Source: Halocatena pleomorpha
GTDB taxonomy: Archaea > Halobacteriota > Halobacteria > Halobacteriales > Haloarculaceae
Length of the DNA stretch: 64,000 nucleotides
Assembly (NCBI RefSeq): GCF_003862495.1
Contig: NZ_RRCH01000028.1
Span: 62,001-126,000, forward strand
Direction: 5' to 3'
The position numbers were made by a program, and so were the translations under genes. Below the pieces are notes generated by a model. It saw only the letters and a list, made by a program, of their open reading frames with translations. It was not told the origin of the DNA and did not search any database. Below, piece after piece: positions 39,641 through 41,919 of this stretch; the stretch's first letter is position 1; each line of letters starts with the position of its first letter.

Positions 39641-40058
39641 TGATCCCGGTGCTCTGGGCGACACTGTACCTGCAGGAACTCCTCGATGTCGGGGACGAGA
39701 TAGCCGTCGTCGTCAGTGCCTATCAAAATACAGATGAGCAAGATGAGTGGCTTGAGGCTTGACCCCCGAGGTGGTTCACCGACACAAGGGCCCGTGCGGT
39801 TCTGACTGTGGTGGGTGTCCACGGGTCCCCATCTGTGAGGAAAGCGACGTGACGACGATACTGTCCTGACGACACACCTCAACAAGCCGGACTAATCAGA
39901 AGAGTTGCTCTCGAACCGACTCACCTCGGCTGGTTCCGAAGCTGTCTTTCATCGCTCCGGTGGTAACGCGAGGAGGATCTTTGTGGTAGTAAAATCGTAA
40001 GCAGTAGACGTTCTATCGTGTGCATACTTATCTAATCGGTACCTTTATTAGGATGCAT
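39641..40058. other. intergenic region before the origin
   Basis: No supported gene. A minus-strand frame near 39655-39770 contains GTDDDGYLVPDIEEFLQ and may be the N-terminal end of the broken propeller gene or of another lost gene. Nothing else was recognised. Confidence 0.3.
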
Positions 40059-40242
40059 TAGGAAACCACAACCGTAGTCTGTTGTCACCAGAGGCGCGGC
40101 CGCTTTGCGGGCGCGCCCCGGAGGGGCGTTCCGTCCGAAGGACGGAACGTCCCGAAGGGCGGACGTAGTCCGCTCAAAGGGCGCGGCTTCCAAGCCGCGC
40201 CCTTTAATAGCCTGCTACAGCAGGCTTGGATGAATTCCTAAT
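40059..40242. repeat. cluster of consecutive perfect DNA hairpins bounded by an 8-bp inverted repeat
   Basis: Five perfect palindromes with loops of 2-3 bases follow each other. They are 40114-40128 (6-bp arms cgcccc/ggggcg), 40127-40149 (10-bp arms cgttccgtcc/ggacggaacg), 40159-40173 (6-bp arms gcggac/gtccgc), 40176-40205 (14-bp arms aaagggcgcggctt/aagccgcgcccttt) and 40209-40226 (8-bp arms agcctgct/agcaggct). attaggaa at 40059-40066 and ttcctaat at 40235-40242 form inverted ends. The GC-rich core contrasts sharply with AT-rich flanks. It could be a MITE-like element or part of the replication origin. No protein is encoded. Confidence 0.8.
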
Positions 40243-40289
40243 ATGGTTTTGAGTGGTTTTTGGAGGTAGCTAGCCGTCTCTGAACGATC

Positions 40290-40689
40290 GCTTCGTTCCC
40301 TTATTTTGATCTTCACTCGGTGCGAGGTGTGTGTCTGGTGAACCGCCTGTCCTCTCGTTTGGGTCTTCACTCGGTATGAGGTGTGGGTGAGATACAGCGT
40401 TATAGCTTATAAAGCAGTCTAAATCTGACTCTCGACGCATTTGCCGCTGGAATATTCGGGTTCACTCGGTATGAGGTGTAGGGAGAAGATTATCGATCGC
40501 TTCGCTCCTTTGTTTTGATCTTCACTCGGTGCGAGGTGTGTGTCTGATCAATCGTCGCCGCTTCTGTACGATCTTCACTCGGTATGGGGTGTGGGTGAGT
40601 TATCGTGTTATAGCCTATAAAGCAGTCTGAAACAGGTCTATGTTGTCTCTATCATCAAAATATCCGAATTCACTCGGTATGAGGTGAGG
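40290..40689 (+). repeat. Orc1/Cdc6-linked replication origin: six iterons in a 209-bp tandem duplication
   Basis: The direct repeat TTCACTCGGTATGAGGTGT (variants with GCGAGG or GGGG) occurs six times, starting at about 40312, 40366, 40461, 40521, 40574 and 40669. The spacings are 54, 95, 60, 53 and 95 bases, so repeats 1-3 and 4-6 form two copies of one unit offset by 209 bp. The DNA between them is duplicated too: the gatcgcttcg...gatcttcac lead-in recurs, and gttatagcttataaagcag (near 40400) recurs as gttatagcctataaagcag (near 40608). The last repeat lies just before the orc1/cdc6 gene. This is the usual layout of a haloarchaeal origin, where such repeats bind the adjacent Orc1/Cdc6. Confidence 0.8.
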
Positions 40690-40722
40690 AAGATTTATCT
40701 GGTCTTGTATTCATGCCATGAT

Positions 40723-41919
40723 ATGGATGATGGATTAACCGACAATATATATCAAACAGGAGATATTTTCTCAAACCGGGAGCTTGTGCGTGTCGGGTAC
40801 GTTCCTAAACTAAGCCGAATCGTTGGGAGAGATGATGAGGTCCGTGAGGTTGGTGGTGCGCTCGGCCCCGCGATACAAGGAGGGCCACCAGAAACATGCA
40901 TTATCTACGGAAAGACAGGTACGGGAAAATCACTCGTTGCGAGGTGTGTGACCCGGGGGGCTGTGAAACGAGCGCAGGATAACGGACATTCGTTCCAGTA
41001 CTGCTATGTCGATTGCTCTGACTATCAGACAGAGGCCAAAGCTAGTCGTGAGATGGCCCGTGGTCTGGAAGAACAGCTCCATGCGGACAAATCAATCCCA
41101 CGGATTGGTATTGGGGCCGCCGATTACCGTGATATAACATGGGAACTGCTCTCTGAATACGACATTGACTCTTTTGTCGTTATCCTTGATGAAATTGACA
41201 AACTGGAGAACGATGAGATTCTCCGCAGTGTATCACGCGCTAAGGAATCCGGAAAATCGAAAACAAATATCGGAGTTATTTGCATCAGCAACAAGATCGA
41301 ATACCGAAAACGGTTCAGCGAGCGTGTTGATTCAAGTCTTCAGGAAAACGACCTCGTATTCGATCCATATGATGCTCACCAGCTCCGGAATATTCTTACG
41401 AATCGTAAAGACGCGTTTAAAGAGGGTGTCTTGGAGAAGTCCGTGATTCCAAAGATAGCTGCTTCGTCAGCACAAGAGCATGGCGACGCTAGAAAGGCCG
41501 TTGACACGCTGTATGAGGCTGGCCGTCTCGCAGAAAAGGCGGGCGCTAGCACAGTCACCAATGATTTCGTTGATGAAGCCTTAAAGAAGGCAGAAGCGAA
41601 TCGATTTAAAGAGCTAGTTTCCGGACAGCCACCGCAGGTGAAGCTGGTCTTGGCAGCGCTAGCATCACTAACGAAGGCACAAGATCGAGACCAGTTCAGA
41701 ACTTCAACGGTCTACGATTGGTATAAGAGAGCTGCTGCTGAAGAAGGGAAACAGCCGCTCAGCTACGATCGAGTATCTAAGCTTCTTCGAGAACAAGGTT
41801 TCTTGGGTATCACCGAGAGTGAGCACACGGGTGGTGGATATGGTGAGGGAAGCTACATGGTGCATCGGCTACTTCGTGATCCCGACATCGTCGTTGAGGC
41901 ACTCAACGATGCCAGCTAG
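40723..41919 (+). CDS. Orc1/Cdc6-family replication initiator
   Basis: AAA+ ATPase of about 398 residues that binds origin repeats and starts replication. From the preferred start: NREL.RVGYVPKLSRIVGRDDEV at the beginning, Walker A IYGKTGTGKSLVAR, Walker B SFVVILDEIDKL and sensor 1 GVICISNK. The C-terminal winged helix is visible (SLTKAQDRDQFRTSTVYDWY, DRVSKLLREQGFL, GGGYGEGSYMVHRL). Starts at 40684 (GTG) and 40723 (ATG) are both in frame. The first would overlap the last iteron, so the ATG is preferred. The gene has its own set of iterons immediately upstream. It may belong to a chromosomal secondary origin, a megaplasmid or an integrated replicon; the sequence cannot tell which. Confidence 0.9.
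   Translation: MDDGLTDNIYQTGDIFSNRELVRVGYVPKLSRIVGRDDEVREVGGALGPAIQGGPPETCIIYGKTGTGKSLVARCVTRGAVKRAQDNGHSFQYCYVDCSDYQTEAKASREMARGLEEQLHADKSIPRIGIGAADYRDITWELLSEYDIDSFVVILDEIDKLENDEILRSVSRAKESGKSKTNIGVICISNKIEYRKRFSERVDSSLQENDLVFDPYDAHQLRNILTNRKDAFKEGVLEKSVIPKIAASSAQEHGDARKAVDTLYEAGRLAEKAGASTVTNDFVDEALKKAEANRFKELVSGQPPQVKLVLAALASLTKAQDRDQFRTSTVYDWYKRAAAEEGKQPLSYDRVSKLLREQGFLGITESEHTGGGYGEGSYMVHRLLRDPDIVVEALNDAS

Follow-up and report, generated by a model that had tools for sequence, protein, structure and literature searches.

Hairpins following a conserved core motif at a candidate replication origin of Halocatena pleomorpha

Introduction

What might a row of back-to-back hairpins be doing beside the gene for a replication initiator? 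The question is raised by a GC-rich block in a 64,000-nucleotide stretch of the Halocatena pleomorpha genome (contig NZ_RRCH01000028.1, positions 62,001 to 126,000 of the forward strand; hereafter 'the window', meaning the whole stretch of DNA analysed), for which a preliminary description made from the sequence alone offered as possible roles a mobile element, a structured part of a replication origin, a barrier and a substrate for a structure-specific nuclease. Beyond initiator-binding sites (ORBs), G-rich repeats and AT-richness, the accessible literature describes no sequence requirement inside the unwinding regions of haloarchaeal origins. The answer argued for here is that the hairpins follow a motif found between initiator-binding sites at many origins, and so are probably a structural part of the replication start.

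The hairpin array and its setting

All five tandem perfect palindromes of the preliminary description (arms of 6, 10, 6, 14 and 8 bp, 40114-40226; all coordinates are on the plus strand of the window) are present, and two of them are the cores of longer stems. The perfect 10 bp at 40127-40149 extend to a 14-bp stem with one G.T pair and a GAA loop (hairpin B, 40123-40153), and the 6 bp at 40159-40173 to an 8-bp stem with one G.T pair and a GTA loop (hairpin C, 40157-40175); these are followed by a perfect 14-bp stem with a CC loop (hairpin D, 40176-40205) and a perfect 8-bp stem (hairpin E, 40209-40226). Ahead of them lies an additional, imperfect stem that was absent from the earlier list (hairpin A, 40093-40117; 11 bp with one G.G mismatch, loop TTT). 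The remaining palindrome, read directly at 40114-40128 (6 bp, loop GGA), overlaps the stems at both 40093-40117 and 40123-40153, so that the folds are mutually exclusive and its formation rules out parts of hairpins A and B. Several of the hairpins are capped by C-GNA-G triloops, and the cluster is the densest within the window. Folding of the DNA, a check that had been proposed from the outset, bore out this structure: the 211 bases at 40040-40250 reach -69.8 kcal/mol, against -36.4 +/- 3.7 kcal/mol for 200 dinucleotide shuffles (z = -9.0).

Protein matches to Halocatena marina plasmids agree with a genome in, or close to, Halocatena. The array is preceded by a promoter-like motif and followed by six direct repeats of the origin recognition box (ORB), beside an orc1/cdc6 gene. 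The repeats (TTCACTCGGTATGAGGTGTG; 40312-40688, with starts at 40312, 40366, 40461, 40521, 40574 and 40669) amount to six matches at three or fewer mismatches, where 0.01 would be expected, and the initiator gene (40684-41919, with a true start that may lie downstream of 40684) is recognised by the Pfam families Cdc6_lid (1.7e-20) and Cdc6_C (1.1e-16). Two of the features by which an ORB-type origin is recognised, an adjacent orc1/cdc6 gene and repeated ORBs next to it, are found in the window. An inverted left copy of the ORB, such as encloses an AT-rich region at many origins, was not found there; the search for it yielded only a weak CACCTC core near 39921, picked out by eye.

A single relative with altered but paired stems

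A DNA similarity search of 146 genomes of the family returned one relative of the block, in a congener (G005), whereas H. pleomorpha itself holds the block once. When 342 haloarchaeal genomes (a sample that does not include G005) were searched with a covariance model of the array, no further copy came to light, and plasmid and phage collections gave short chance matches only. The search of haloarchaeal genomes that the preliminary description had called for thus produced one relative, itself beside an orc1 gene, and otherwise no copies.

These results bear heavily on the idea that the block is a MITE or another mobile element inserted beside the origin. The attraction of that idea is the 8-bp inverted repeat, ATTAGGAA (40057-40064) and TTCCTAAT (40235-40242), which does frame the block as first described, but which is weak evidence since the same 700 bp hold nine perfect inverted pairs of 8-9 bp, one of them an overlapping alternative to the frame, and since the G005 relative lacks it. 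Homology with G005 runs from 39784 to about 40200, continuing some 280 bp to the left of the block, and the hallmarks of a MITE (multiple copies, conserved terminal inverted repeats and target duplications) are missing, with no target duplication seen. With one copy at home, one relative in the family and none found by the covariance model, a mobile element is scarcely credible.

The upstream segment common to both genomes (39784-40062) aligns with G005 as part of the replicon. In G005 (L035, 8640-9200, minus strand) a short zinc-ribbon-like reading frame, CGPGCDGCPHGPYRWGKWRDGDTVRTTYLGKPD, for which there is no Pfam match, ends upstream of the block; the window copy of this frame (39784-39895) is broken by a frameshift and a stop. 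The G005 block is flanked by a RepH-like DUF5817 gene and by a different orc1 with different ORBs; as the array is shared despite these differing initiators and ORBs, it is not merely a hitch-hiker of one initiator gene. A feature of RepH was also considered, given the adjoining RepH/DUF5817 gene in G005, and was rejected, as the other RepH genes of the genus have no such block downstream.

Within the stems that can be reliably aligned between the two genomes, four pairs have changed on both sides with pairing kept, two one-sided changes also keep pairing, and one G.G mismatch has become a G-C pair. Hairpin A has a perfect 13-bp counterpart at the same place in G005, hairpin B is nearly identical, hairpin C shows a compensatory change from A-T to G-C, and hairpin D two double changes from G-C to A-T; hairpin E could not be reliably aligned, and G005 has a different, longer hairpin near its position. 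The stems of the two relatives therefore differ whilst keeping their pairs, which is not the free variation among strains named at the outset as an outcome that would tell against a role. One must consider, however, that palindromes can be kept perfect by mutation bias, through template switching at quasi-palindromes, rather than by functional selection: such correction can produce changes that look compensatory, and the array is found in two genomes only. Mutation bias nevertheless leaves the position of the hairpins unexplained, as stems of unrelated sequence recur at +23 to +31 past the same motif in other origins (see below), and we regard it as decidedly unlikely.

A core motif shared by many haloarchaeal origins

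Some 14 bases before the start of the hairpin row lies a core motif, AAACCACAACCGTAGT (40063-40078), preceded at a distance of 19 nt by a TATA-like box, TTTATTA (40044-40050), the two forming a composite, TTTATTA-N11/12-AAACCACAACCGTAGT, at 40044-40078. The motif recurs at orc1-adjacent origins across haloarchaeal families. In 392 haloarchaeal genomes, the pattern TTTATTA-N11-AAACCACAACCGTAGT with at most three mismatches occurs at 34 places in 32 genomes and 21 genera, and a reversed-pattern control gave no match; the pattern is strict, and absence elsewhere means merely more than three mismatches (a 27th-percentile caveat). An orc1 gene lies within 1.5 kb at 28 of the 30 composite-pattern loci examined, which include the chromosomal oriC1 of several families, the retrieval of orc1 loci being exhaustive for Halocatena only. 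Across 38 aligned sites the TTTATTA box is conserved at -18/-19, with 0.7-1.6 bits per base. A weight matrix built from those 38 sites reaches scores of about 15 to 47 at some 23 Halocatena orc1 loci and no higher than 11.5 in the window outside the motif, a comparison that is no independent test as the matrix was trained on many of the same Halocatena sites.

The placement of the motif is equally regular. Of 47 sites, 41 have the motif enclosed by inverted repeats of the ORB kind, compared with none of 141 shuffles, and at 32 of the 41 the left ORB arm ends 73 +/- 5 nt before it, with the start of the right arm ranging from +83 to +373. To judge from such sequence comparisons, the motif is a polar core element that keeps a constant distance to one ORB, falls within the presumed duplex-unwinding region and is frequent at origins adjacent to orc1/cdc6. 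A second spacing class (L206, L207, L227, L236 and L244) has its left ORB farther from the motif, near -120 to -150 rather than at -73, and comprises the origins whose Orc1 proteins most resemble that of the window. In most origins the motif points away from orc1; in the window and in G005 it points towards it. The oriP region of Haloarcula hispanica pHH400, an origin confirmed by experiment, gave no match to the motif, which is accordingly common rather than universal.

No description of the motif was found in the accessible literature, which is limited for the Halobacterium oriC1 and for mapping in Haloferax, and a prior description is possible. Amongst viral contigs, 19 exact motif matches were encountered, none with the context of box and hairpin, and these were taken as chance; so was a match at L209 (G320), where neither ORBs nor, within about 4.5 kb, an orc1 gene is present.

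Stems beside the motif in other origins

Four other Halocatena origins carry exact or near copies of the motif, and directly after each copy comes a strong hairpin with an unrelated sequence. Perfect stems of 9 bp or longer at +16 to +90 were found in seven of 15 non-redundant Halocatena origins, where shuffles predict 0.06, and on the upstream side of the same 15 there is one such stem; downstream of the motif in origins of other genera there is none in 24. The start of the first stem falls within +23 to +31 in every strong case. The first stem of the window, at +30, carries one mismatch, and the perfect stem is the next one. Stem sequences are mostly unrelated between Halocatena origins, and in the window and its one relative a single stem has been expanded into a GC-rich array.

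The excess in Halocatena persists when stems are scored less strictly (combined P about 1e-8). Some origins of other genera then show weaker stems at comparable positions, at a P of about 9e-4 that is biased, some of the sites having been found by a model that rewards a hairpin. Outside Halocatena, then, stems are weak or sporadic, and the many motif-bearing haloarchaeal origins with no clear stem indicate that a hairpin is not a general requirement. A 9-bp hairpin that follows CACAACC at L160/L161 was discarded as a candidate, a better-scoring core element with no strong stem lying elsewhere in those loci.

The recurrence of stems also speaks to the suggestion that the hairpins act as a barrier to replication forks or transcription, shielding the origin from traffic arriving from the left. 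Such a barrier would be well served by stable GC hairpins bordering the ORB array, but the stems of other origins sit inside the core between the ORBs, some of these stems are AT-rich, and no consistent T tract follows the hairpins; we consider a barrier very unlikely. Of the roles first proposed, it is a structured part of the replication origin that gains support, as the block comes immediately after a motif that many haloarchaeal families have at origins adjoining orc1 and flanked by ORBs, and stems recur at the same place in the origins of Halocatena.

Origin DNA or origin RNA

Archaeal promoters obey a spacing rule in the placement of the TATA box, and plasmid RNAs are known to prime replication or to control copy number. 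The motif could, on these grounds, be an ordinary BRE/TATA promoter and the hairpins part of its transcript, a structured origin RNA that would prime replication or control copy number. The distance from TTTATTA to the GTAG at the end of the motif, about 30 nt, fits archaeal promoter geometry, and the hairpins are directly downstream. Furthermore, the in-stem deviations of hairpins B, C and D in both relatives are all G.T on the motif strand and never C.A, a bias that rests on few cases, would arise by chance about once in eight and sets aside mismatches outside the aligned stem. Against this, conservation of the 16-bp motif behind the box goes far beyond what a promoter would require, the motif occurs almost exclusively at origins and keeps a constant spacing to the left ORB, a consistent T tract is again missing, and no Rfam family reached the cut-off with the block or came near it. 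It is mainly the fixed ORB spacing and the restriction of the motif to origins that favour a role as DNA in initiation; a promoter with an origin transcript is somewhat unlikely, and stays in consideration because of the promoter-like geometry.

The explanation that we prefer, and to which we give roughly even credence, takes the block to be a downstream arm, conserved in structure rather than sequence, of a core element of the replication origin. Orc1 bound at the ORBs would open the core, upon which the opened motif strand may fold into stable hairpins next to the motif; these could keep the region open, or present folded single-stranded DNA as a platform on which a helicase or primase is loaded or activated. 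Several points count against such an arm: GC-richness is odd in an element that should unwind; only two genomes are known to have the full array; neither the window nor G005 has a recognisable left ORB, which leaves this a candidate origin; the motif is missing from the pHH400 oriP; and many origins with the motif are devoid of a clear stem.

The closest parallel to the core motif is the ucm of the Sulfolobales, which, according to the accessible part of its report, lies in the unwinding region with ORBs on either side, is essential to the activity of the origin and is recognised by the protein UBP (PMC12141716). As far as that part goes, the two are alike in being short conserved motifs of an AT-rich unwinding region, set between inverted ORBs and common to origins with different initiators (PMC12141716). 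This placement holds for the core motif generally, and the window itself has no left ORB. The core motif belongs to a different lineage from ucm, and the likeness to what is accessible of the ucm account is one of placement. The accessible part reports no hairpin at ucm (PMC12141716), in contrast to the stems beside the core motif in Halocatena. By analogy with ucm and UBP, the core motif may also be bound by a protein. It is a tentative further proposal, held with rather less than even credence, that haloarchaea share a ucm-like polar core bound by a protein at a fixed ORB distance, to which Halocatena has added a sequence-independent hairpin module acting as single-stranded DNA or as origin RNA.

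Another inverted repeat is known from haloarchaea, the G-rich repeat of oriC1 that promotes initiation in Haloarcula hispanica (PMC3936714). Like the block it is an inverted repeat, lying in haloarchaeal origins on the inner side of the two ORBs, but it consists of two distant arms abutting each ORB, whereas the block is a series of tight stem-loops next to the core motif (PMC3936714). With its tight hairpins beside the motif and no left ORB in the window, the block was rejected as an enhancer of this kind. The complementary-strand origin of phage G4 and plasmid ssi and sso sites are familiar examples of start sites whose stem-loops are recognised in single-stranded DNA, where they serve bacterial primase or RNA polymerase. 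Both those sites and the block have stable stem-loops; such a role for the block is an analogy only.

In tractable haloarchaea, a polar motif at a fixed ORB distance is a precise target for mutation, and the core motif could both sharpen origin prediction and lead to its binding protein. Hairpins that change in sequence but keep their place and pairing, moreover, provide a clean test of DNA or RNA structure in archaeal initiation.

Other orc1 loci of Halocatena

Halocatena genomes (G000 and its congeners) carry up to 15 orc1/cdc6 genes each, many with no recognisable core motif nearby. At three of the Halocatena orc1 loci (L134, L135 and L136) a TATA-like box and a hairpin are present with a different intervening motif, AGTCCATTGA, and these are possibly a second type of core. 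In G000, positions 1-330 of contig C26 and the end of contig C36 (L036, L037) share about 330 bp that span another orc1 origin, and are thus probably adjacent pieces of one replicon.
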